Positions 22,111-41,844 of a stretch of DNA of 64,000 bases are shown one piece after another. Under the pieces are notes generated by a model, which saw only the letters and a program-made list of their open reading frames with translations, was not told the origin of the DNA and made no database searches. Position 1 is the stretch's first letter. The number at the start of each line of letters is the position of its first letter. The DNA lies in contig WRPG01000001.1 of NCBI GenBank assembly GCA_009773355.1, positions 186,001 through 250,000 of the forward strand, written 5' to 3'. Position numbers and translations under genes: made by a program. Source of the stretch: Limisphaerales bacterium (lineage in GTDB: Bacteria; Verrucomicrobiota; Verrucomicrobiia; Limisphaerales; SXTU01).

Positions 22111-23622
22111 ATGAAACCCGCTCTGTCCGTCCTGTTCGCCCTGCTACTGTCGCTCCTTGCGTCCGCGCCTGCCTATGCCGCCCAACTCCTCGCTGGCGTC
22201 GCGAAGGTGGACATCACAGACCGCGCGGCGGGGCCGGTCAACGACCCTTCCTACGTGAAAGCGCTCGTGCTCAAGGACGGCGCCACCACCGTCGTGCTCG
22301 TCACGGTGGACGCGGTGGCCATCGGCGGCATCGGGCGGATTGGGAATGATTACCTCGGGAAGGTGCGCGCGGAGTTGCAGCGGGAGCTGGGCATCCCGCC
22401 TGCGAGCGTGCTCGTCAACGCCAGCCATTGCCACAGCGTCGTGCGGCGCGACACGGACGCGCTCACGGTGCAGGCCGTGAAGGAGGCGGCGAAGAATCTC
22501 GTGCCCGTGCGCACCGGGGCCGGGCGGGGACGCGAGGACCGCATCATGGAGAACCGCCGCCTCAAGCTGAAGGACGGCAGCGAACTGGACCTCCGCCGCG
22601 CCTACGCGACGCCGCGCGACGAGGACGTGGCCAGCGTCGGCCCCGTGGACGCGGAGATTGGTCTGCTGCGGCTCGACCGCACGGATGGCCGGCCCTTCGC
22701 GCTGGTCTACAACTTCGCGTGTCATCCCATCCACGGCGTGCCGGCGGGCGGGAACACGGCGGATTTCCCCGGCTTCGCGTCGAAGGTCATCGAGGAGAAT
22801 TTCGGCGAGGGCGTGATGGCGTTCTTCGTGCAGGGCTGCGCGGGCGACATCAACCCGTCGCTCTACAAGGCCACGCAGCACCCGCACGACGCGGAGGCTT
22901 ACGGAAACCTGCTCGGCCTGAGCGCGCTGCGGGCGGCGCGCGGCATCAAGACGGGCGAGGCCAGCCCGTTGCGCGTCGTGCGCGAGACGGTGTCGCTGCC
23001 GCGCGCGGCGGACTATGAGCAGCGCATCGCGGCCATCGAGAGCGAGCAGGCGCGGCTGTTGAAGTCGTTTCGCGGCACGAGCCTGAACTTCAAGGCGTTC
23101 CTCCCGCTGTTCCTCCAACAAAAACTTTCGCCGGATTTCCCCGCGTATCCAAACTATGGCTACCTCCACGAGAAGGCGCAGGGCCGCGATGCCTTGGCTA
23201 AGCTCGACGCCGAGAACCGCGCGAACGTCGAGGCCTACCTGCGAAACATCCAGGCGATGGAGCGGCTCACGCACTTGCAGGTGAACGTCGCGCTGCTCAA
23301 GCGCCACCACGCCGAGGCCATCGCGGCGGGCACGCCGACGCTTGACGTCGAGATGTCCGGCCTGCGCGTCGGCGAGTTCGTGATGGTGACGTTCCCCGGC
23401 GAGCTGACGGTGGAGCTGGGGCTTGCCGTGAAGAAGCGCGCGCCGGGCAAGTTCAGCTTCGTGGCCGGCTACACCAACGGCTACCTCTTCTACCTGCCCA
23501 CCGAGGCGCAGCGGAAGAACCCCGGCTACGCGCAGGAAGATTGCGACTGCCTCGTGGCCCCGGAGTGGCGGAAGATTTTTGACGAGCGGACGGATGCGGT
23601 GCTGAAGCGGTTGAACCAGTAG
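22111..23622 (+). CDS. Exported neutral/alkaline ceramidase-like protein
   Basis: 503 residues from ATG 22111 with a signal peptide (ALSVLFALLLSLLASAPAYA). The body resembles the N-terminal domain of neutral ceramidases: a start with GVAKVDITDRAAGPVND, the SHCHS histidine motif, the NFACHPIHG segment with likely zinc ligands and FVQGCAGDINP. In this group such proteins are annotated as neutral/alkaline non-lysosomal ceramidase family. Real substrate is unknown. The TAG stop is bases 2-4 of a REPIN, so the last codon is set by the element. Confidence 0.8.
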   Translation: MKPALSVLFALLLSLLASAPAYAAQLLAGVAKVDITDRAAGPVNDPSYVKALVLKDGATTVVLVTVDAVAIGGIGRIGNDYLGKVRAELQRELGIPPASVLVNASHCHSVVRRDTDALTVQAVKEAAKNLVPVRTGAGRGREDRIMENRRLKLKDGSELDLRRAYATPRDEDVASVGPVDAEIGLLRLDRTDGRPFALVYNFACHPIHGVPAGGNTADFPGFASKVIEENFGEGVMAFFVQGCAGDINPSLYKATQHPHDAEAYGNLLGLSALRAARGIKTGEASPLRVVRETVSLPRAADYEQRIAAIESEQARLLKSFRGTSLNFKAFLPLFLQQKLSPDFPAYPNYGYLHEKAQGRDALAKLDAENRANVEAYLRNIQAMERLTHLQVNVALLKRHHAEAIAAGTPTLDVEMSGLRVGEFVMVTFPGELTVELGLAVKKRAPGKFSFVAGYTNGYLFYLPTEAQRKNPGYAQEDCDCLVAPEWRKIFDERTDAVLKRLNQ

Positions 23623-23739
23623 CTCGACATTCCAATGTCGAGACTCCGACACCCGCCATCACGACAGAACGACGGAGTCTGAAATTGAACGCGAAGTAAC
23701 TTAGAATGACCAAGACTCGACATTGGAATGTCGAGCTAC
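23619..23739. repeat. REPIN, family 1, copy 2
   Basis: GTAG plus the palindrome CTCGACATTCCAATGTCGAG at the left and its exact reverse complement at the right, with a 73-nt spacer that contains its own short dyad (AGACTCCG/CGGAGTCT). It overlaps the stop codon of the ceramidase-like gene and ends 8 nt before the RAYT start. Confidence 0.92.
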
Positions 23740-23747
23740 GGTGACCG

Positions 23748-24536
23748 ATGAAGAAACTCTCGCTGCCTAAGAGCATTCCCGCACGCCCCACCTTCCGTGG
23801 GGTTGATGTGGAGGAACTGTGGCTGGTGCCGGGGTATCGGCGGAACTTGCCGCACTTGCGCGTCGAGGGTGCGACTTACTTCGTGACCTTTCGACTCGCG
23901 GACTCCATCCCCGAGTCCGTCGCGAAGCAGTGGCATGAGGAGCGGGACTTCTGGTTGCGGGTGCATGGCGTGGACCCGGCGTGGGCGGAGTTCGACCCAA
24001 AGCGTTGGAGCGATGCCTACCAGGCCATCTCCATCGGCGAACGCCGGGCCTTCGAGCGCGAGCAGCAACGGCAGTTCTTGGTCGAGTTGGACAAGTGTCA
24101 CGGCAGTTGCCTGCTAGCGCAAGCCCACGGCATCGTCGCGCAGGCGTTGGAGTTCTTCCACGGCCAGCGCGTTTGGGTGGGCGACTACGTCGTGATGCCC
24201 AATCATGTCCACGTGTTGGCGCAGCCGTTTCCCGGCGTGCAACTCGAAGAGTGGCTGTATTCGGTCAAACGCTTCACGAGCACGGAGATGGGCAAGGACG
24301 CCGGACTGAACGCACACGCACTGATGCGTCAGGGACATCTGTGGCAGACAGAGTCCTTCGACCGCATCTTGCGCGGCGTCGAGGAACTGGCGCGCACGCG
24401 ACGATACATTGCGAACAACCCGGAAAAGCTGCGGCCCGGCACGTTTGCCCTGAAGCAAGCAGACTGGCTCGACGAGTATGCGCCGCCCGCTGGTAGCTCG
24501 ACATTCCAATGTCGAGTCGAGGAGCAACCAGCATGA
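23748..24536 (+). CDS. REP-associated tyrosine transposase (RAYT)
   Basis: 262 residues of the IS200-like Y1 transposase superfamily. The HUH motif is present as HVH in VVMPNHVHVL, and the catalytic tyrosine is in RYIANNP. The first strand (YFVTFRLADSIP) and the length of the linker to HVH, which includes an insertion of about 50 residues, match large RAYT forms. RAYTs bind GTAG-footed REP hairpins and are thought to spread them. The last 15 residues (SSTFQCRV and following) are encoded by the left arm of the downstream REPIN, so the natural C-terminus may end just before it. Confidence 0.9.
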   Translation: MKKLSLPKSIPARPTFRGVDVEELWLVPGYRRNLPHLRVEGATYFVTFRLADSIPESVAKQWHEERDFWLRVHGVDPAWAEFDPKRWSDAYQAISIGERRAFEREQQRQFLVELDKCHGSCLLAQAHGIVAQALEFFHGQRVWVGDYVVMPNHVHVLAQPFPGVQLEEWLYSVKRFTSTEMGKDAGLNAHALMRQGHLWQTESFDRILRGVEELARTRRYIANNPEKLRPGTFALKQADWLDEYAPPAGSSTFQCRVEEQPA

Positions 24537-24589
24537 AACAGCCTCGCCGCTTACGACAACGGGTTCTCGACATTGGAATGTCGAGCTAC
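24493..24589. repeat. REPIN, family 1, copy 3
   Basis: Same 24-bp arms as the other two copies. The left arm is read through by the RAYT frame because the TAG is out of frame there. The right arm ends 56 nt before sufU. Confidence 0.92.
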
Positions 24590-24645
24590 GTGGGCGGCCA
24601 GATTTCATTCGCGCTGCGCCACCCGGCATTCAACACTTTCCCGCC

Positions 24646-25101
24646 ATGAACGACGACCTCAACGACCTCTACCAAGAAGTCATCCTGGAGCACGCGAAAA
24701 GCCCGCGGAACTTCAAGGTGCTGCCCGACGCCAACCGCGTCGCCCACGGCACCAATCCGCTGTGCGGCGACAACTACACCGTCTATCTCGTCATGGACGG
24801 CGATGTGGTGCGGGACGCGAGCTTCCAAGGCTCCGGCTGCGCCATCTCGAAGGCGTCGGCGTCGCTGCTCACCAGCACCATCAAGGGCAAGACGCGCGCG
24901 GACGTGGAGGCGCTTTTCGGCAAGGTGCATGACATGGTCACCACCGGCCACGCGGACGACAGCATGGGCAAGCTCGCGGCGTTCGCGGGCGTGCACAAGT
25001 TCCCGGCGCGCGTGAAGTGCGCCATCCTCTCCTGGCACGCGGCCAAGGCGGCGGTGGCCGGCGGCGGGACGGTGAGCACGGAAGGCGAAGAAAATGCCTG
25101 A
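24646..25101 (+). CDS. sufU: Fe-S cluster assembly / sulfur-transfer protein SufU
   Basis: 151 residues. The N-terminal LYQEVILEHAKSPRNF segment and three cysteines (NPLCGDNY, GSGCAISKAS, RVKCAILSW) define the IscU/SufU fold; the FPARVKC spacing with its extra loop is the SufU type. SufU accepts sulfur from SufS, usually with bound zinc. ATG 24646 follows the REPIN. Its TGA is overlapped by the start of the next gene (8 nt). Confidence 0.93.
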   Translation: MNDDLNDLYQEVILEHAKSPRNFKVLPDANRVAHGTNPLCGDNYTVYLVMDGDVVRDASFQGSGCAISKASASLLTSTIKGKTRADVEALFGKVHDMVTTGHADDSMGKLAAFAGVHKFPARVKCAILSWHAAKAAVAGGGTVSTEGEENA

Positions 25102-25525
25102 TTCCACAGCAATCAGCTCGGCGCAACAGGAGCACGAAGCGAAATTCGTTCGGGCCTTTGTATTGCCAGAGAAGCAGGAGCGATGGTTGATGATGCTGGC
25201 GAAACCAAAGCGAAGAAGCGACATCACTCACTCATTGGCTCATTCACGAGACCTTGATGAAAGCTGGGCCATTCCGATTCAATCGGCTGAACAAACTGCG
25301 GCGGGAGTTTCCAGACTGCTTGCCACGAAAGGAGCGCCAAAGTTGTGCCATTTGATTTCGGAGTCCAGCGAGTTGGATGGACGTGAGATGGGTTTGGAAG
25401 AAGCCATTGATGCGGTGCTTGGCATGGGTTTGGGCACAGTCGTTTCCTGCATTCCTGGACGGCTTGTCTATTACGAAGCTGAATTCCGAACACGATTCCT
25501 TTTGGAACGAAACCAGCCAGTTTGA
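25094..25525 (+). CDS. Hypothetical protein in the suf locus
   Basis: 143 residues, no recognised family. It is soluble, with a central LPEKQERWLMMLAKPKRR segment, an ISESSELDG segment and an acidic loop followed by GLGTVVSCIPGRLVYYE. Two isolated cysteines are present but no metal motif. It overlaps sufU by 8 nt and ends 3 nt before sufT, so it is co-translated with iron-sulfur genes. Its G+C content is lower than its neighbours, which suggests a later insertion into the operon. Function unknown. Confidence 0.75.
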   Translation: MPDSTAISSAQQEHEAKFVRAFVLPEKQERWLMMLAKPKRRSDITHSLAHSRDLDESWAIPIQSAEQTAAGVSRLLATKGAPKLCHLISESSELDGREMGLEEAIDAVLGMGLGTVVSCIPGRLVYYEAEFRTRFLLERNQPV

Positions 25526-25528
25526 TTT

Positions 25529-26092
25529 ATGCACTCCTACGAAACCGTCACCCTCACCCGCGACGTGGATGCCACGCGCATTCCGTCCGGCGAGAAGGGT
25601 TTTATCCCCAAGGGCACCGAGGTCACCATCACGCAGGTGCTGGGCGGCGCTTACACCGTGCAATTCATCGGCGGCCTCGCGCGCATCGAGGGCAAGGACG
25701 CCGATGCGCTCGGCAAGGTGCCCGTGGCCGCTCCGGTGCCCAGCACCACGCCCGCGCCCGCCGGGCCGGTCACGAAGGAGGCGCTCGTCGAGCAGGTCTG
25801 GACCGCGCTCCGCACCTGTTACGACCCGGAAATCCCCGTCAACATCGCCGACCTCGGCCTCATCTATAACTGCGACCTCACCGAGCTGGGCACCAACAGC
25901 TACAAGGTGGACGTGAAGATGACGCTCACCGCGCCCGGATGCGGCATGGGCCCGGTGCTCGTGCAGGACGTGCAGAACAAGCTCCTCTGCCTCGAAGGCA
26001 TTGACGACGTGAACGTGGAGCTGGTCTGGGATCCGCCGTGGAACCAGGGGATGATGACCGAGGCGGCCAAGCTTCAGCTCGGACTCATGTAG
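25529..26092 (+). CDS. sufT: Fe-S assembly protein SufT (DUF59/MIP18)
   Basis: 187 residues. An N-terminal segment of about 70 residues (small beta domain) is joined by an AP-rich linker to a MIP18/DUF59 domain with YDPEIPVNIADLGLIY and APGCGMGP, the conserved cysteine of the family included. SufT acts in maturation of Fe-S proteins in several bacteria. The ATG is 3 nt after the hypothetical gene. Confidence 0.9.
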   Translation: MHSYETVTLTRDVDATRIPSGEKGFIPKGTEVTITQVLGGAYTVQFIGGLARIEGKDADALGKVPVAAPVPSTTPAPAGPVTKEALVEQVWTALRTCYDPEIPVNIADLGLIYNCDLTELGTNSYKVDVKMTLTAPGCGMGPVLVQDVQNKLLCLEGIDDVNVELVWDPPWNQGMMTEAAKLQLGLM

Positions 26093-26127
26093 CAGCCGAC
26101 GTGAGGAGGCTCTGGTTTTTTTATGAA

Positions 26128-26217
26128 GCAGGTGAGAAAGCGGGAAAGCGTGAAAGTGAGCCGAGTGCTCCCGATGCCGAACCCTCACCTGCCCGCTTTC
26201 CCACTTTCTCACTTTCC
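26128..26217. repeat. Inverted-repeat element between sufT and sufS
   Basis: Left arm GCAGGTGAGAAAGCGGGAAA, right arm ending CCACTTTCTCACTTTC, imperfect reverse complements of about 30 bp. It ends 6 nt before the sufS ATG, so it may cover the translation start of sufS. Confidence 0.7.
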
Positions 26218-26223
26218 ACTCCG

Positions 26224-27459
26224 ATGACTCCACCAACTCCCGACTGGCAGAAACTCCGCGCGGACTTCCCAATCCTCGACCAACAGGTCCACGGCCATCC
26301 GCTCGTTTACTTTGACAACGCCGCCACTTCGCAGAAGCCGCGCGCGGTGATTGACGCCCTCGTGCGCTACTACGAGCGCGACAACGCCAACGTCCACCGC
26401 GGCATCCACGAGTTGAGCAACCGCGCCACCGCCGGCTACGAGGCCGCGCGCGTCCGCACCGCCAAGTATCTGAACGCCCGCGACCCGCACGAAATTGTCT
26501 TCACGCGCGGCACCACCGAGGGCATCAACCTCGTCGCGCAGGCGTGGGGCAGCCAGTTCATCAAGGCCGGCGACGTCATCCTCGCCACCGAGATGGAGCA
26601 CCACAGCGACATCGTCCCCTGGCAGCTCCTGGCCGCGCGCACCGGCGCGAAGCTCCGCTTCCTGCCCATCCGCGACGACGACCACACGCTCGACCTCGCG
26701 CGCCTCGACGAGTTCCTCACGCGCGACGTAAAGCTCTTCGCCATGGCGCACATCTCGAACGCCCTCGGCGTCGTGAACCCCGTCGCGGAACTCTGCGCCC
26801 GCGCGCGCCAGCTCGGCGCGGTCACGCTCGTGGATGGCGCGCAAAGCGCCGGCCACCTCCCCGTGGACGTGCAGGCCATCGGCTGCGACTTCTTCGCCTT
26901 CAGCGGCCACAAGATGTGCGGCCCCACCGGCAGCGGCGCGCTTTACGGTCGCCGGGAAGTCCTCGAAGCCACCCCGCCCTACATGGGCGGCGGCGAGATG
27001 ATCTCCACCGTGGACTACGACCACAGCACCTGGAACACCATCCCGCACAAGTTCGAGGCCGGCACGCCGGACATCTCCGCGCCCATCGGCCTGCACGCCG
27101 CGATGGATTACCTCGACGCCATCGGGCGGGAGAACATCTGGCGGCACGACCAGGAACTCGCGGAGCATTGCCACGACCGGCTCGCCTCGCTGAACGGCGT
27201 CCGGCTCTTCGGTCCCGCGAAGGGCCGCGCCGGTCTTGTGAGCTTCCTCCTGAACGACGTCCACGCGCACGACGTGGTGACCATCGCCGACCGCTACGGC
27301 GTGGCGTTGCGCGGCGGGCACCACTGCACCCAGCCGTTGATGAAGAAACTCGGCGTCCCCTCCACCGCCCGCGCCAGCTTCTACTTCTACAACACCAAGG
27401 CCGAGGTGGACCGCTTCATCGAGGTGGTGAAGGAGATACAGAAGTTCTTCGGGGTGTGA
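26224..27459 (+). CDS. sufS: Cysteine desulfurase SufS
   Basis: A 411-residue PLP enzyme that takes sulfur from cysteine for cluster assembly. Group II cysteine desulfurase motifs are clear: DNAATSQKP near the N-terminus, THEHHSDIVPW-like EMEHHSDIVPW, the PLP lysine in FSGHKMCGPTG and the active-site cysteine in RGGHHCTQPLM. Length fits SufS. ATG 26224 is chosen; the ORF track includes repeat sequence upstream. Last gene of the suf locus. Confidence 0.97.
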   Translation: MTPPTPDWQKLRADFPILDQQVHGHPLVYFDNAATSQKPRAVIDALVRYYERDNANVHRGIHELSNRATAGYEAARVRTAKYLNARDPHEIVFTRGTTEGINLVAQAWGSQFIKAGDVILATEMEHHSDIVPWQLLAARTGAKLRFLPIRDDDHTLDLARLDEFLTRDVKLFAMAHISNALGVVNPVAELCARARQLGAVTLVDGAQSAGHLPVDVQAIGCDFFAFSGHKMCGPTGSGALYGRREVLEATPPYMGGGEMISTVDYDHSTWNTIPHKFEAGTPDISAPIGLHAAMDYLDAIGRENIWRHDQELAEHCHDRLASLNGVRLFGPAKGRAGLVSFLLNDVHAHDVVTIADRYGVALRGGHHCTQPLMKKLGVPSTARASFYFYNTKAEVDRFIEVVKEIQKFFGV

Positions 27460-27630: not shown

Positions 27631-27727
27631 GTAGGCGTTTCCCTTAACCGGCTAGGCCGGACGGCTATTGCGATTCAGGGAGGCAACCTATGGCCGGTGA
27701 CGCGGCAGGCCGCCTAGTCTCGTCGGC
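27631..27727 (+). promoter_or_regulatory. Conserved leader element, copy A
   Basis: About 97 nt immediately ahead of the gene at 27728, roughly 80 percent identical to 38561-38655. The best conserved stretch is GGACGGCTATTGCGATTCAG followed by GGAG-CAACC and ATGGCCGG. Both copies end exactly at an ATG (ATGACA...). It may hold a promoter and an RNA structure or a decoy start codon: AGGGAGG lies before the inner ATG at 27690, which opens a 13-codon reading frame ending in ATGA overlap with the main start in copy A only. Similarity extends a few codons into the genes. Confidence 0.6.
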
Positions 27728-28288
27728 ATGACAACGAAGTGGACCGATCCGGCAAGGGGTGGCTGCGGAGTGACCGCCAGCGAACTGTTCAACGTGGTCC
27801 TGGTGTATGAAGACCAGTTTTGCGCGCAGCGCGGCCTGGCATTCTATCAAAACCTCATGGGCGAGCTGGGCATCGCGTGCGAGTTCAACCTCAGCGCCTG
27901 GAAGTCCGCCGTGCTGGCCCTGGCCCGGCTGGATGAGCTTACGCGGGAACAGGCGGCGGCGGCCGACCTCGTCATCGTCTGCTCACGGGGCAGTTCAGCG
28001 CCAGCGGACCAGATTCAGTCGTGGCATCAGCGCTGCGCGGACCTGAAAGATGGCAATGATTGCGCCTTGGTCGTGCTGGATGCCGAGGCCGGGGAAAACT
28101 CCAGGGCGGGGCGGCCGGACCAGTTTATTTCCAACCCCGCGCACCGTCGCGGCACGGCCGGCTCTCCTGCGGCAACGGGGTGTGCCCGGGCCGACAGTCG
28201 GGCCTGGTTTGCGCCCCGGCAAGCCGCCCGCGCCTGGCAACCGAGGCAGGCTTGCTCAACGAGCGCCACGGCCTGCGCCGGAACCTGA
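27728..28288 (+). CDS. Conserved hypothetical protein (VYED family-like)
   Basis: 186 codons. The first 115 residues look like a real alpha/beta protein: ELFNVVLVYEDQFCAQRGLAF, LGIACEFNLSAWKSAVLALA and AADLVIVCSRGSSAPADQ, ending in the LVVLDAEAG strand. I recall similar small proteins in Verrucomicrobiota without known function; this is memory, not a search. The last 65 residues are rich in Ala/Arg and read like non-coding DNA translated, so a frameshift or extended non-native tail is possible. It is preceded by the conserved leader and followed by the microprotein at 28327. Confidence 0.6.
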   Translation: MTTKWTDPARGGCGVTASELFNVVLVYEDQFCAQRGLAFYQNLMGELGIACEFNLSAWKSAVLALARLDELTREQAAAADLVIVCSRGSSAPADQIQSWHQRCADLKDGNDCALVVLDAEAGENSRAGRPDQFISNPAHRRGTAGSPAATGCARADSRAWFAPRQAARAWQPRQACSTSATACAGT

Positions 28289-28326
28289 TCCCATCGTCCG
28301 CTCGAAACCTTCACCCACTGCCCACC

Positions 28327-28524
28327 ATGAACGAAGTCTCAGCCATCCCGCTCGCCGACCTCGCCAACGCCTACGCCACCCGCTGGTCAGCGCAACGCCC
28401 GCCGCCGGAAAAGGGGTGGCCGGCCCATCGCGCCGAGCTGCGCCGGACCCGCGAGGCCAACGAGGTGTTTCTCTGCCTCACGGAGTTCCTGCCAGATCAT
28501 CCGCGCTGCGGAATCCATGAGTGA
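28327..28524 (+). CDS. Microprotein with EANEVFL...CGIxE tail (copy A)
   Basis: 65 residues starting MNEVSAIPLADLANAYATRW. Its last 23 residues align with the microprotein at 38656: EANEVFL, then PD, then CGI-E (14 of 23 identical by eye). No known domain, signal peptide or membrane segment. It is followed by a strong terminator, so it ends the transcription unit that begins at the leader at 27631. Confidence 0.6.
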   Translation: MNEVSAIPLADLANAYATRWSAQRPPPEKGWPAHRAELRRTREANEVFLCLTEFLPDHPRCGIHE

Positions 28525-28633: not shown

Positions 28634-28657
28634 GGGCGCCGTGATGCGCCCTTTTTT
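28634..28657 (+). terminator. Rho-independent terminator
   Basis: A GGGCGC/GCGCCC stem with a 6-nt loop followed directly by six T residues. It separates the microprotein gene from the response regulator gene at 28687. Confidence 0.85.
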
Positions 28658-28686: not shown

Positions 28687-29145
28687 ATGACCATGCCCGT
28701 GACCAAAGAAGTTGTGATCCTGATCGCGGAAGATGACGCCGGCCATGCAGTGCTCATCGAGAAGAACCTCAAGCGCGTGGGCCTGCACAATCCCATCCAG
28801 CGCTTCGAGAACGGCCAGGAGATTCTCGACTTCCTCTTCCGCCGCAGCCCTGGTCCGCAGCGCCGGGCGGACACGGCGTATCTGCTGCTGCTCGACATCC
28901 GCATGCCGAAGGTGGACGGCGTGGAAGTGCTCCGCCAAGTCAAGGCGGACCCCTCGCTCCGCAAGCTGCCCACCATCATGCTCACCACCACCGAGGATCC
29001 GCGCGAGGTCGCGCGCTGCCACGAGCTGGGCTGCAACAACTACATCGTCAAGCCGGTGGACTACGAGAAGTTCTCCGAGGCCATCAAGCAGCTCGGCCTG
29101 TTCGTCTCCCTCGTGCAGGTGCCGGACATCAACGGCAAGCCGTAG
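28687..29145 (+). CDS. Single-domain response regulator (Rcp1-like)
   Basis: 152 residues forming one receiver domain: acidic pair in LIAEDD, phosphoacceptor Asp70 in LLLDIRMPKVDG, threonine in MLTTTED and lysine in YIVKPVDY. The extended loop RRADTAYLLLLD is typical of Rcp1-like regulators that partner with phytochrome-type or PAS-rich kinases. No output domain, so it works by protein contact. An AAGGG sequence 6 nt before ATG 28687 is a good ribosome binding site. A cognate kinase is not adjacent; the hybrid kinase at 33124 is a candidate. Confidence 0.92.
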   Translation: MTMPVTKEVVILIAEDDAGHAVLIEKNLKRVGLHNPIQRFENGQEILDFLFRRSPGPQRRADTAYLLLLDIRMPKVDGVEVLRQVKADPSLRKLPTIMLTTTEDPREVARCHELGCNNYIVKPVDYEKFSEAIKQLGLFVSLVQVPDINGKP

Positions 29146-30340: not shown

Positions 30341-31798
30341 GTGCCTGACCGTCCGCCAAAGTCCACGCCCACGACCGTCTTCGTGGTGGACGATGACTGC
30401 GGGCTGGCCCGCCTCATCGAACGCGCGCTCAAGCGCGCCGGCCACACCACCGCCTCCGCCAGCTCCGGCTTCGACGCCATCAACTGGCTGGGACAGCACC
30501 GGCCGGAGCTGCTGCTGCTTGACCTGAAATTGCAGGATCTCGAAGGCCGGGAGCTGATCAGCCAGCTTGAGGCGCTCGGGCGCACCGTCCCCTTCATCGT
30601 CATCACCGGGCAGGGCGACGAGCGCGTGGCCGTGGAGATGATGAAGCGCGGCGCGCTGGACTACCTCGTCAAGGACGCACAGTTCCTCGACCTCGTCCCC
30701 GCCGTGGTGCAGCGCGCGCTGGCGCAGATCGAGCGCGACCGCCGGCTCGCCGCGACTGAGGAGGCGCTGCGCCACAGCGAGGCCATCCTGGCCAAGGCCC
30801 AGCAAATCGCACAGCTCGGCAGCTATGAAGTCGAGCTTGGCCCGCCGCCCGTGGCCCGCTGGTCCGCGCAGATGTTCCGCATCCTCGGCGTCGCGCCGGG
30901 CGCGGTGCGGCCCCTCTCCGATGAGTTCTTCGACCACTTGGTCCACCCGGACGACCGGGCGCGCGCGCGCGCGACCATCGAGGATGGCATCCGCCGCGGC
31001 GAAGGCTGGAAGTTCGAGTATCGCATTCTGCGCCCCGACGGTGAGGTGCGCCATGTGCAAAGCTCCAGCGAGGCCGTCGGCAACAGCGGGGTGGCCCGCA
31101 AAATTGTCGGCACCATGCTCGACATCACCGAGCGCCGCCGGCTGGAGCAGGAGATTCTCAGCATCAGCGAGCAGGAGCAGCGGCGCATCGGGCAGGACCT
31201 GCACGACGGCATCTGCCAGCAGCTCGCGGGCATCGAGCTGATGAGCCAGGTGCTGGAGCAGGCGCTGGCCCCGAAGGCGAAAAAGCATTCCGCCCAGGCC
31301 GGGCAGATTGCCGCGCATGTGCGCGACGCCATCACCCAGACGCGGATGCTCGCGCACGGCTTGTGCCCGGTCGTCTTGGAGTCCGAAGGGCTGATGTCCG
31401 CATTGCAGGAGCTGGCCAATGCCACCACGAAGATGTTCGGCGTGGACTGCGTCTTCCGCTGCGACCATCCCGTGCACATCCACGACAACGCCACGGCCAC
31501 GCACCTCTACCGCATCGCGCAGGAGGCGGTGAGCAACGCCATCAAGCACGGCAGATCGCGCCGCATCGAGGTCGGCCTGGCCGCCGAGTCCAACCGCGTC
31601 TTCCTCGCCGTGAAGGACAACGGCTGCGGCATCCCCGCCACGCCGCCGCGCACCGGCGCCGGGCTGCGCATCATGCAATACCGCGCCGGCATGATTGGCG
31701 GGTCCGTCATTGTGCAGCGCGGCGAGCCGGACGGCACCACCGTCGCCTGCTCCGTGCATCAGTCCCCGCCGCTGCCGAAGGGCAAGCCACGACGATGA
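30341..31798 (+). CDS. Receiver-PAS-NarL-type histidine kinase
   Basis: 485 residues from GTG 30341. An N-terminal receiver (residues 8-125; Asp61 in LLLDLKLQ) is followed by a PAS domain (about 140-275; TERRRLEQE coiled coil) and a HisKA_3/HATPase_c kinase core with the phosphoacceptor His288 in GQDLHDGICQQL and the ATP motifs NAIKHG and DNGCGIP. The HisKA_3 form pairs with LuxR-type regulators, and the next gene encodes one. Divergent from the DUF883 gene; the 198-nt gap should hold both promoters, though I do not see clear boxes. Confidence 0.9.
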   Translation: MPDRPPKSTPTTVFVVDDDCGLARLIERALKRAGHTTASASSGFDAINWLGQHRPELLLLDLKLQDLEGRELISQLEALGRTVPFIVITGQGDERVAVEMMKRGALDYLVKDAQFLDLVPAVVQRALAQIERDRRLAATEEALRHSEAILAKAQQIAQLGSYEVELGPPPVARWSAQMFRILGVAPGAVRPLSDEFFDHLVHPDDRARARATIEDGIRRGEGWKFEYRILRPDGEVRHVQSSSEAVGNSGVARKIVGTMLDITERRRLEQEILSISEQEQRRIGQDLHDGICQQLAGIELMSQVLEQALAPKAKKHSAQAGQIAAHVRDAITQTRMLAHGLCPVVLESEGLMSALQELANATTKMFGVDCVFRCDHPVHIHDNATATHLYRIAQEAVSNAIKHGRSRRIEVGLAAESNRVFLAVKDNGCGIPATPPRTGAGLRIMQYRAGMIGGSVIVQRGEPDGTTVACSVHQSPPLPKGKPRR

Positions 31799-31943
31799 GC
31801 TGCTCCCAAAATCCAAATGGCTGCCGCCTCCATCTGCGAGCCTCGCCCCACCAGCGCATCGGTCGGCTGGAGCGGTGGTCCGGGGATCGGATGGAAAGCA
31901 GGGCAGAGCACCGCCGACCAGCTTGCTTTGGAGGGAATCCCCG

Positions 31944-32636
31944 ATGAAAACGAAGAAGAAAAAACCCGCCGCGCCCGCGCCGAAGAAAATCCTCATCGTG
32001 GACGACCACCCGTTGATGCGCGACGGCCTCGTTGCGCTCATCACCGCGCAGCCCGACCTCGCCGTCTGCGCCCAGGCCGCCGACGCGCGCGAAGCCCTGC
32101 AGGCCGTCGAGGCCCACTGGCCCGACCTCGTGCTCATGGACATCTCGCTCCCCGGCAAGAGCGGCCTCGAAGCCATCAAGGATTTGCAGGCCATCCAGTC
32201 CGGCCTCGCCATCCTCGTCCTCTCGATGCACGACGAGGCGCTCTACGCCGAGCGCGTGCTGCGCGCCGGCGCGCGCGGCTACGTGATGAAGCAGGAGGGC
32301 GGCAAGCGCATCATGGACGGCATCCGCGCCGTGCTGGAGGGCCGCGTCTTCGTCAGCGAGAAGATGTCCGCGCGCATCATGGACGCCTTCACCGGCCACC
32401 GGACCGGCGGCGCAGGCAGCTCGGTCGAGTCGCTCTCCGACCGCGAGTTCGAGGTGTTCCAGCTCATTGGCCGGGGCCGCAGCACGAAGGAAATCGCCGC
32501 GCAGCTTCACCTCAGCGGCAAGACCGTCGAAGTCCACCGGGTCAACATCAAGGCCAAGCTCAAGCTCGCCACCAGCCCCGAACTGGTCCACTACGCCGTG
32601 CGCTGGGTGGAATCGCAGTCTGCCGCCGGCCATTGA
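31944..32636 (+). CDS. LuxR/NarL-family response regulator
   Basis: 230 residues. Receiver with Asp66 in LVLMDISLPGKSG, preceded by a lysine-rich leader (MKTKKKKPAAPAPKK), then a LuxR helix-turn-helix (SLSDREFEVFQLIGRGRSTK and SGKTVEVHRVNIK). Starts 145 nt after the kinase gene, close enough to form a two-component pair. ATG 31944 is supported by a GGAGGGAATC ribosome binding site; the ORF track start is an artefact. Confidence 0.93.
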   Translation: MKTKKKKPAAPAPKKILIVDDHPLMRDGLVALITAQPDLAVCAQAADAREALQAVEAHWPDLVLMDISLPGKSGLEAIKDLQAIQSGLAILVLSMHDEALYAERVLRAGARGYVMKQEGGKRIMDGIRAVLEGRVFVSEKMSARIMDAFTGHRTGGAGSSVESLSDREFEVFQLIGRGRSTKEIAAQLHLSGKTVEVHRVNIKAKLKLATSPELVHYAVRWVESQSAAGH

Positions 32637-38481: not shown

Positions 38482-38560
38482 GGCAGGAGAGTAGCCGGCC
38501 ACGGTTGCGATGTCACCGTCCGCCCGCGCAACGACGCGCGCCCAGGCGCGGATTGGAGCG

Positions 38561-38655
38561 TAAGCGTTTCCCCTAGCGCGCTAGGCTGGACGGCTATTGC
38601 GATTCAGGGAGACAACCAATGGCCGGCGGCGCGCCGGGCGGTCAGTCTCGCCGCC
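38561..38655 (+). promoter_or_regulatory. Conserved leader element, copy B
   Basis: Second copy of the leader found at 27631. Shared features are GTTTCCC near the 5' end, the GCTAGGC-GGACGGCTATTGCG core, CAGGGAG-CAACC and an inner ATGGCCGG, ending at the ATG of the downstream gene. It is one base shorter between the two ATGs, so the inner reading frame is not conserved and is unlikely to be a translated leader peptide. Confidence 0.6.
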
Positions 38656-38865
38656 ATGACATCGCATTGGAACGACTCGCTGAACGAGGAATCATCCTTC
38701 ATCCCGCCCCATATAGCCACCGCCCGGCCATCCGGGAGCCTGCGCGCATCCGCCACGCGGGCCATGCGCCAATCGGAATTGCTCTTCACCATGGAAGCCA
38801 ACGAGGTGTTCCTCGCCTTCCTGGAAACGCCGCCGGATTTCTCCCATTGCGGCATCAACGAATAG
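38656..38865 (+). CDS. Microprotein with EANEVFL...CGIxE tail (copy B)
   Basis: 69 residues starting MTSHWND. The start resembles that of the gene at 27728 (MTTKWTD) while the last 23 residues (EANEVFLAFLETPPDFSHCG then INE) match the microprotein at 28327. It therefore looks like the copy A locus with the middle removed, or the ancestral minimal form. No domain or membrane segment. It converges with the pseudo-receiver gene, 22 nt away. Confidence 0.6.
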   Translation: MTSHWNDSLNEESSFIPPHIATARPSGSLRASATRAMRQSELLFTMEANEVFLAFLETPPDFSHCGINE

Positions 38866-39389: not shown

Positions 39390-40598
39390 TCACTTCAGCT
39401 TCAACGTCAGCGGCGGCGGGGCGGCGGCGGGCGCGCCGTGGGCGGCGGCGTCCTTCTTCATGCCCAGGTTGGTGACGTTCGTGGTCACCTCGCCGCGCTT
39501 CTTCTTGATGTTGTCTATGCCGCGCGAGGTCGGGCCTTTCTTGCTGCAATAGAGCAAGGCGCTCTCCTCCGTGATGAGGTTCTGCTCGAAGGCCTCCATG
39601 CACGCCTGGTCAAAGCTCTTCCAGCCAAAGGTGTAGCTGGCCTCGATGATCTCGTAGAAGGTCTTGCCCTCGGCCTCGCCCTGGAGGATGGACTCCTTGG
39701 TGCGGACGCTGTTGCCCATGATCTCAAGGATGGCCTGACGTCCGCCGCCCACCTTCGGCGCGAGGCGCTGGCTGACGACCCAGCGCAGCGTGTCCGCGAG
39801 GCGCTCGCGGATCTGGTCCTGCTCGCTCAACTCGAACATGCCCAGGATGCGGTTGATGGTCTGGCCGCAATCAATCGTGTGCAGCGTGCTCATCACGAGA
39901 TGGCCGGTCTCGGCGGCGGAGAGGCCCAGCTCGACGGTTTCGCGGTCGCGCATTTCGCCGACGAGAATCACCTTGGGCGCCTGGCGCAGCGCGGCCCGTA
40001 GGCCGCTGGAGAAGCGGTCGAAGTCCGTGCCCATCTCGCGCTGGTTGAAGGTCGCCTTCTTCTGCGGATGCACGAACTCGACCGGGTCTTCCAGCGTGAC
40101 GATGTGGATGGACTTGGTTTCGTTGAGGTCGTTGAGCAGCGCCGCGAGCGTGGTGGACTTGCCGGAGCCGGTCGCGCCGGTGACAAGGACGAGGCCGGTC
40201 TTTTCCTTGGAGATTTCCTTGAAAATGGGCGGGAGCTTGAGCTGCTCAAGCGTGGGAATCTGCGTGGTCAGCTTGCGCAGGATGCAGGAGTAGTTCCCGC
40301 GCTGGGAGAAGATGTTCACGCGGAAGCGAGCCTTCTGGCCGAGGGAGTAGGAGGAGTCGCACGAACCGGTGCGCAGCAGATCCTCGGTGAGGCGGCGGCT
40401 GCCGCCGATGAGATTGAGGGCGATCTGCTCGGTCTGGAAGGGCGTGAGCCGGTCCACCGGCGGGTTGATGGGCACGGCGACGAGCTGGCCGGAGGACTCC
40501 ACCTGGAGCGGCTTGTCCACGGTGATGTTGAGGTCGGACACGTCCTTGTTGGAGTCCAACATCGTGGTGAGGATGTAGTCGAGTTCGTTGGCGCGCAT
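39390..40598 (-). CDS. PilT/PilU-family twitching motility ATPase
   Basis: 402 residues. Walker A GATGSGKSTT, the Asp box LEDPVEFVHPQ, Walker B VILVGEMRDRET and the His box STLHTID are intact, as in PilT-type retraction ATPases. The C-terminal 50 residues are a lysine- and alanine-rich extension lacking in PilT. With the second ATPase upstream this forms a PilT/PilU-like pair. Confidence 0.9.
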   Translation of the reverse strand: MRANELDYILTTMLDSNKDVSDLNITVDKPLQVESSGQLVAVPINPPVDRLTPFQTEQIALNLIGGSRRLTEDLLRTGSCDSSYSLGQKARFRVNIFSQRGNYSCILRKLTTQIPTLEQLKLPPIFKEISKEKTGLVLVTGATGSGKSTTLAALLNDLNETKSIHIVTLEDPVEFVHPQKKATFNQREMGTDFDRFSSGLRAALRQAPKVILVGEMRDRETVELGLSAAETGHLVMSTLHTIDCGQTINRILGMFELSEQDQIRERLADTLRWVVSQRLAPKVGGGRQAILEIMGNSVRTKESILQGEAEGKTFYEIIEASYTFGWKSFDQACMEAFEQNLITEESALLYCSKKGPTSRGIDNIKKKRGEVTTNVTNLGMKKDAAAHGAPAAAPPPLTLKLK

Positions 40599-40731: not shown

Positions 40732-41844
40732 TCAATCCGCATCGCCATTCGACCGCGCCTCCTCCTGCTCCGCCGGGGTGAGGAAGGGGAAGAATTTTTT
40801 CTTGTCGAGGGACTTGTCGAAAGCGTCCTTCGCCGCGATGCGTTTCATGCGCAAGTGATCCATGATCGAGTCGTCCAGCGGCGTGTTGCCGAGCTTTTTG
40901 CCGACTTGGATCATGCCCGGAATCTGGTGCGTCTTGCCTTCGCGCACCATGTTCGCAACGGCGGTGGTGAAGACGAGAATCTCCAGCGCGGCCACGCGGC
41001 CCGGCTTGTCAATGCGCTTGAACAGGTTCTGCGCCACCACGCCCTTGAGCGCCTCGGAGAGCGTCGCGCGCACCTTGTTCTGCTGGTCGGCAGGGAACAC
41101 GTCAATGATGCGGTCCACGGTCTTCGCGGCGCTGGGCGTGTGCAGCGTGCCGAAGACCAGGTGGCCGGTGCTCGCCGCCGTGAGCGCCAGCTCGATGGTT
41201 TCCAAGTCGCGCATTTCGCCGACCAGAATGATGTCCGGGTCTTCGCGCAGCGCGCCCTTGAGCGCGGATGCGAAGGACTTCGTGTGCATGCCGACCTCGC
41301 GGTGGTTGATGAGGCAGCCCTTGCTCTGGTGGACGAACTCGATCGGGTCCTCGACGGTCAGGATGTGGTCGTGGCGGTTCTTGTTCGCGTAGTCAATCAT
41401 CGCGGCGAGCGTGGTGGACTTGCCGGAGCCGGTGGGGCCGGTGACGAGCACGAGGCCCTTGTGCATCATCGGGAACTTGCGCAGCACGGCGGGCAGCGGG
41501 GCATCGAACTTCTCGAAGTCCTCGAAGGAAAGCACCGTGCTGGGAATCTGGCGGAAGACGGCGGAGCAGCCGTATTTCTGATTGAAGAAGTTCGCGCGGA
41601 AGCGGGCGACGGTGGGGATTTCGTAGCCGAAGTCCACGTCGCCGGTTTCCTCGAACTGCTTCACTTTGATTTCCGGCGCGATTTCGTAGAGCATCGCCTT
41701 GAGCGCGTCGCTCTCCAACGGCGGGTAGTCCACGCGGCGCAGTTCGCCGCTGATGCGGAGAATGGGCGGGCTGCCGGAAGCCAGGTGCAGATCGGATGCC
41801 TTCTGCTGCATCATCAGGTTGAAGAACGCGTCAATCTTGGCCAT
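40732..41844 (-). CDS. pilT: Type IV pilus retraction ATPase PilT
   Basis: 370 residues, the canonical PilT length. Walker A GPTGSGKSTT, Asp box VEDPIEFVHQ, Walker B IILVGEMRDLET, and the AIRNLIRE-like C-terminal region (MVREGKTHQIPGMIQ). It drives retraction of type IV pili. First gene of the minus-strand operon with the PilU-like ATPase and the pseudo-receiver. Pilin candidates at 50.3 and 52.1 kb are of a different, secretion-like class. Confidence 0.93.
   Translation of the reverse strand: MAKIDAFFNLMMQQKASDLHLASGSPPILRISGELRRVDYPPLESDALKAMLYEIAPEIKVKQFEETGDVDFGYEIPTVARFRANFFNQKYGCSAVFRQIPSTVLSFEDFEKFDAPLPAVLRKFPMMHKGLVLVTGPTGSGKSTTLAAMIDYANKNRHDHILTVEDPIEFVHQSKGCLINHREVGMHTKSFASALKGALREDPDIILVGEMRDLETIELALTAASTGHLVFGTLHTPSAAKTVDRIIDVFPADQQNKVRATLSEALKGVVAQNLFKRIDKPGRVAALEILVFTTAVANMVREGKTHQIPGMIQVGKKLGNTPLDDSIMDHLRMKRIAAKDAFDKSLDKKKFFPFLTPAEQEEARSNGDAD

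Follow-up and report, generated by a model that had tools for sequence, protein, structure and literature searches.

Two related elements and their genes

The window analysed here, a 64,000-nt stretch of contig WRPG01000001.1 from a Limisphaerales bacterium, contains two copies of a short element that lie about 11 kb apart on the same strand (Table 1). A first-pass annotation had described them as a conserved leader of roughly 97 nt ending at a start codon, and the pair is real. The two copies are 85% identical across 80 nt (27631-27710 and 38560-38639), 83% identical across about 102 nt and 81% identical across the aligned ~97 nt, and an ATG terminates both (27728 and 38656). The core sequence GGACGGCTATTGCGATTCAG (20 nt) occurs exactly twice in the window, at 27659-27678 and 38588-38607, where 0 occurrences are expected by chance, and these are its only exact matches in the 6.16-Mb genome. 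Outside this genome and its very near kin, which the collection may omit, an exact 24-nt core had no match among 84,980 genomes. A third core-like match (C59) fell within coding-like sequence, lacked the remainder of the element and was rejected.

Table 1. Features of the two loci and of the neighboring regulatory genes, in window coordinates.
Feature	Position	Strand	Basis
Promoter/operator element, copy 1 ("leader")	27631..27727	+	R1 and R2 models; alignment with 50 other promoters
Box A, copy 1: near-palindrome TAGGCGTTTCCCTTA, consensus TARGG-N5-CCYTA	27632..27646	+	Promoter alignment, symmetry test, genome pattern scan
Box B, copy 1: GATTCAGGG-N6-CCTA, consensus AATCAGG-N7-CCAAT	27672..27690	+	Promoter alignment
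Putative -35, copy 1: TGGCCG, 18-nt spacer	27691..27696	+	Register from pocR promoter alignment; missed by consensus scan
Putative -10, copy 1: TAGTCT, 7 nt 5' of ATG	27715..27720	+	pocR promoter register; consensus scan negative
YED-family flavodoxin-like ORF, 186 aa, without its own C-terminal tail	27728..28288	+	Family alignment, profile search, structure model
Microprotein 1 (65 aa), tail PDHPRCGIHE	28327..28524	+	ORF translation, tail comparison
Terminator-like hairpin then T6, before CheY-like gene	28634..28651	+	1 found vs 0.7 expected in shuffles
CheY-like response regulator	28687..29145	+	PF00072, 1.7e-17
Receiver-PAS-histidine kinase (HisKA_3)	30341..31798	+	Domain search; homologous kinases in G007 and G008 clusters
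NarL/LuxR-type response regulator, candidate palindrome binder	31791..32636 (start approximate)	+	PF00072 and PF00196; homologues beside many YED genes
Promoter/operator element, copy 2	38560..38655	+	Repeat comparison; R1 and R2 models
Box A, copy 2: TAAGCGTTTCCCCTA	38561..38575	+	Promoter alignment, genome pattern scan
Putative -35, copy 2: TGGCCG, 17-nt spacer	38620..38625	+	Promoter alignment
Putative -10, copy 2: CAGTCT, 7 nt 5' of ATG	38643..38648	+	Promoter alignment
Microprotein 2 (69 aa), N-terminus MTSHWND, tail PDFSHCGINE	38656..38865	+	ORF translation, tail comparison

The same annotation placed a microprotein downstream of each copy. At locus 2 the microprotein itself begins at the element. 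At locus 1 the ORF starting at the element encodes a protein of 186 amino acids (27728-28288), and the microprotein is encoded in a different frame by a further ORF, some 600 nt beyond. We term the family of the 186-aa protein "YED", a label coined here from its VVIVYED motif. The shared C-terminus reported for the two microproteins is confirmed: REANEVFLCLTEFLPDHPRCGIHE (ORF 28327-28524) and MEANEVFLAFLETPPDFSHCGINE (ORF 38656-38865) both carry the motif PD...CGI-x-E. Past microprotein 1, the terminator-like hairpin would end the first operon 5' of the CheY-like gene.

Beyond this species, a degenerate box-A pattern, a protein query and model R1, which is described below, located five further copies of the element within the genus, spread over four species: two in G007 and a single copy in each of G003, G004 and G008. 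A microprotein with the tail PD(Y/F/H)xx CGI(N/H)E comes after six of the seven genus copies. The seventh (G007a) lies 5' of an internally deleted YED ORF, which is followed by a CheY-like gene; in all, a CheY-like gene lies beside the element in G004, G007 and G008 as well as in the window.

Several other features of the window were noted. Directly 5' of copy 1, the region 24478-27459 holds NifU-like, SufT-like and cysteine-desulfurase-like ORFs and resembles, by eye, an Fe-S assembly cluster. A palindromic repeat, CTCGACATTGGAATGTCGAG, is present in several copies (2094-2193, 23608-23752 and 24482-24602), four of them around ORF 23748-24536, which resembles a REP-associated (RAYT) transposase. 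Tandem PilT/PilU-type ATPase genes with stretches of 71-76% identity occupy 39390-40598 and 40732-41844, the first of which matches TIGR01420.

The element precedes pocR genes throughout the order

Model R1 was built from the seven microprotein leaders alone, without structure. It matched the region 5' of a PocR-AraC regulator gene in the same genome (C27:350911, E 4.9e-5), and also pocR upstream regions in six other genomes, two of them from other families. A second model, R2, was built from 51 promoters, mostly those of pocR, and has matches at E <= 0.01 in 129 of the 320 genomes of the order. Eighty R2 matches, picked by score and multiplicity and not randomly, were fetched; 71 lie directly 5' of a frame with PocR (PF10114) and AraC domains, and one more (L310) is truncated at a contig end. 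This share is partly a result of construction, because R2 was trained mostly on pocR promoters, whereas the recovery of pocR by R1 is not. The element was also recognised 5' of about 45 of 78 pocR orthologues in a separate collection of 80 orthologue loci from named genomes, 78 of which had usable upstream sequence. Within the genome of the window R2 yields exactly three matches at E <= 1, namely pocR and the two window copies (E 1.5e-12 for copy 1), which indicates a small regulon. On these alignments the window elements are most likely of the same kind as the order-wide pocR/araC promoter, and the earlier suggestion of a shared, promoter-type control element tied to a protein family is borne out in other genomes.

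Nine of the fetched R2 matches have no adjacent PocR frame, and four of these precede YED-family genes; two of the four proteins end in SHWGINE and ARWGLTE. Weaker R2 matches before other genes (L330, L334, L338 and L342) are either chance matches or additional targets. Genes that they precede encode multicopper-oxidase-like (G246), PRC-barrel-like (G039) and metal-binding-like (G002) proteins.

The regulator whose gene most often follows the element matches PF10114 (6.3e-22) and HTH_18 (2.5e-25), the same domain make-up as PocR of Salmonella, which joins a PF10114 sensor to an AraC helix-turn-helix. It matches the NCBIfam PocR profile at 4.2e-29, but with 101.7 bits against a cut-off of 500; it is not a PocR equivalog, and its candidate targets, in contrast to those of the Salmonella protein, are itself and YED genes. 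Five cysteines (C57, C67, C70, C90 and C95) are invariant in seven aligned PocR-AraC proteins and perhaps form a metal or redox site. The pocR genes of the genus are preceded by a conserved uORF of about 30-34 codons, started by GTG and reading VKAR(T/S)ERQDK... (L133, L120-L123). It begins at the predicted transcription start, and its stop codon overlaps the ATGA start of pocR in three of the loci that were checked. A search of the literature for PocR regulation or leaderless promoters in Verrucomicrobia returned nothing relevant.

Probable promoter architecture

The pocR promoters share the arrangement CTAAGGNTTTCCCTTAG-N4-CTAG ... AATCAGG-N5-CCCCAATTGT-N17-TAWWTTG-N5-ATG. Both a -35 and a -10 could be scored in 50 fetched promoters. 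The two hexamers are 17 nt apart in 42 of these and 18 nt apart in the other 8; in 29 of the 50, the first ATG or GTG lies 6-7 nt past the -10. Read from the alignment, this spacing and the position of the ATG are the geometry of a leaderless promoter of the sigma-70 type. We propose a regulated promoter in which box A, a palindrome of the kind bound by dimers, would be followed by a further CTAG and by box B abutting the -35, then by the spacer of 17-18 nt, the -10 and a transcription start at or beside the ATG, so that the mRNA would be leaderless; boxes A and B would both be bound by protein. Like other leaderless sigma-70 promoters, the element has its -10 6-7 nt before the start codon and no Shine-Dalgarno sequence. 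It differs from them in the extra conserved operator boxes that extend over ~60 nt upstream.

Box A is two-fold symmetric, with 68% complementarity in register compared to at most 37% when slid. This symmetry, unaccompanied by covariation, fits a site for a protein dimer with a fixed half-site. The exact box-A pattern TARGSNNTTYCCYTA occurs in the whole genome only in the three promoters, those of pocR and the two window copies. Box A alone, with up to one mismatch allowed, is not enriched genome-wide (18 matches, compared to 25 in the control). Boxes A and B are spaced about 2 nt differently in the window leaders than in the pocR promoters of the genus. By themselves, the window hexamers (-35 TGGCCG and -10 TAGTCT or CAGTCT) are poor matches to consensus, and a consensus scan for sigma-70 promoters did not recognise copy 1. 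The weakness of these hexamers would fit activator dependence and suggests that the window copies need a bound activator.

The YED family and the microprotein tail

The YED ORF of the window aligns with its family at 24% to the first alignment row and 43% to the G008 protein, and a search with a YED profile detects the family in 48 of the 384 genomes of the class. Of 30 YED ORFs, 12 have a C-terminal tail of the form [WCF]G[ILV][NTS]E; the other 424 frames of 100 aa or more at these loci all lack it. Among the best nine weak R2 matches in 25 YED loci, seven lie just 5' of the YED gene on the same strand (binomial ~1e-10), so it seems that diverged forms of the promoter precede YED genes across the order. 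A single-sequence structure model, of low confidence (pLDDT 53.5), has alternating strands and helices, and its best Foldseek matches are to the flavodoxin 2ark (probability 0.95-0.99, E 7e-3); one member has a weak match to MioC (9e-4). In searches with YED sequences, every Pfam and NCBIfam family stayed below its cut-off, and comparison of the YED profile with solved structures found no relative. The core is probably flavodoxin-like, and we regard YED as an undescribed protein family. Its predicted core resembles flavodoxin and MioC-like flavoproteins in that strands alternate with helices, and some members also have a THGxGxL-type loop; the family differs from those proteins in its C-terminal xWGINE tail.

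In the last 16 codons of six microprotein tails, differences at the three codon positions number 57, 50 and 117, and this excess at the third position indicates that the tail is selected as protein. A profile of the 24-aa tail gave only chance-level matches (E >= 0.005) beyond the six genus members, and full-length microprotein queries were too weak past the genus. Compared with the YED tail pattern, which is short, microprotein 2 (SHCGINE) fits and microprotein 1 (RCGIHE) is off at one residue. On the strength of this match and near-match, the microproteins look like YED derivatives that have retained the tail. The YED core would have been deleted in copy 2, G003, G004 and G007b, and would be encoded on a separate ORF in copy 1 and G008. 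The tail may dock on a partner. A more speculative extension, which we think improbable, is that flavodoxin-like signalling proteins dock through the xWGINE tail, and that microproteins reduced to this tail, expressed from the pocR-type promoter, cap the partner or compete for it.

Alternative readings of the element

The "leader" is, with good confidence, double-stranded promoter DNA of a pocR-type regulon and not RNA. The first-pass annotation had also entertained an RNA element or a translational switch, and a transcribed cis-regulatory RNA (riboswitch, thermometer or translational switch) controlling the downstream ORF might be expected from two strongly conserved copies that end at a start codon, and from an 8-bp stem, UUUCCC(U)/AGGGAG(A), that is possible in several genus leaders. 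However, neither this stem nor a hairpin at box A covaries clearly above shuffles, an RNAalifold consensus of 51 sequences predicts no pairs, and the fold z-scores of the seven leaders range from -2.0 to +0.3, with one at -2.0 and the other six at -0.5 or above. An Rfam search of the window gave 0 matches at gathering scores, the best sub-threshold one (E ~5) lying around copy 1, and the -35/-10 pair at fixed spacing at the end of the element leaves no room for a transcribed leader. What had appeared to be a ribosome binding site with an inner ATG, GGGAGGCAACCTATGG, coincides with box B and the -35, a block conserved as promoter sequence in dozens of pocR promoters. We therefore consider an RNA very unlikely. 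Recent local duplication of the whole leader-gene unit, without wider meaning, would account for the fact that, among the genus leaders, the two window copies form the most similar pair (81%); it is refuted by the presence of the leader with a protein family in other genomes, with five copies spread over four further species of the genus and pocR promoters throughout the order. A mobile repeat (REP, MITE or integron-like) would likewise be short and intergenic with inverted parts, but the genome has only three copies, all of which keep a constant spacing to a start codon and accompany orthologous genes, and we give this reading almost no weight.

Within the promoter reading, the choice of binding protein is more evenly balanced: on present sequence comparisons PocR has about an even chance, and a NarL-type regulator a chance somewhat below even. 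If PocR is the binder, it would regulate its own gene and two further targets; the element is chiefly a pocR promoter, for which autoregulation would be the simplest reason. The competing candidate is the NarL/LuxR-type regulator of the kinase/regulator pair at 30341-32636, with pocR as one of its targets, a reading that we hold to be a substantial possibility. A two-fold symmetric site is expected for a LuxR/NarL dimer, and box A is such a site. Operators of NarL/FixJ/LuxR-type proteins (e.g., the DosR-type GGGAC..GTCCC) are two-fold symmetric GG..CC sites 5' of the -35 that appear similar to box A; the element here differs in its half-site, TARGG. Genes for a kinase and a LuxR-type regulator lie directly 5' of YED genes in several genomes (L344, L348, L352, L360, L364 and L365), the second element of G007 starts about 40 nt past a LuxR regulator frame, and related palindromes precede some other YED genes (6 of 30, compared to 25 of 529 control windows, a modest enrichment). 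Such adjacency is weak evidence, however, because kinase/regulator pairs of this kind are common, and the element is overwhelmingly tied to pocR, which autoregulation explains most simply.

Significance

The pocR-type promoter reading gives a Verrucomicrobiota regulator, for which we found no regulatory literature, an operator and promoter model that can be tested across the order, and defines, in one genome, a minimal regulon of three promoters. It would also stand as an example of a conserved block 5' of a start codon that acts as a leaderless promoter instead of an RNA leader. Through its promoter the regulator is linked to YED, a probably flavodoxin-like family, as yet undescribed, whose C-terminal tail is conserved. 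If the tail-only microproteins do compete for the partner of that tail, they would feed back on a two-component/PocR circuit in this genus.
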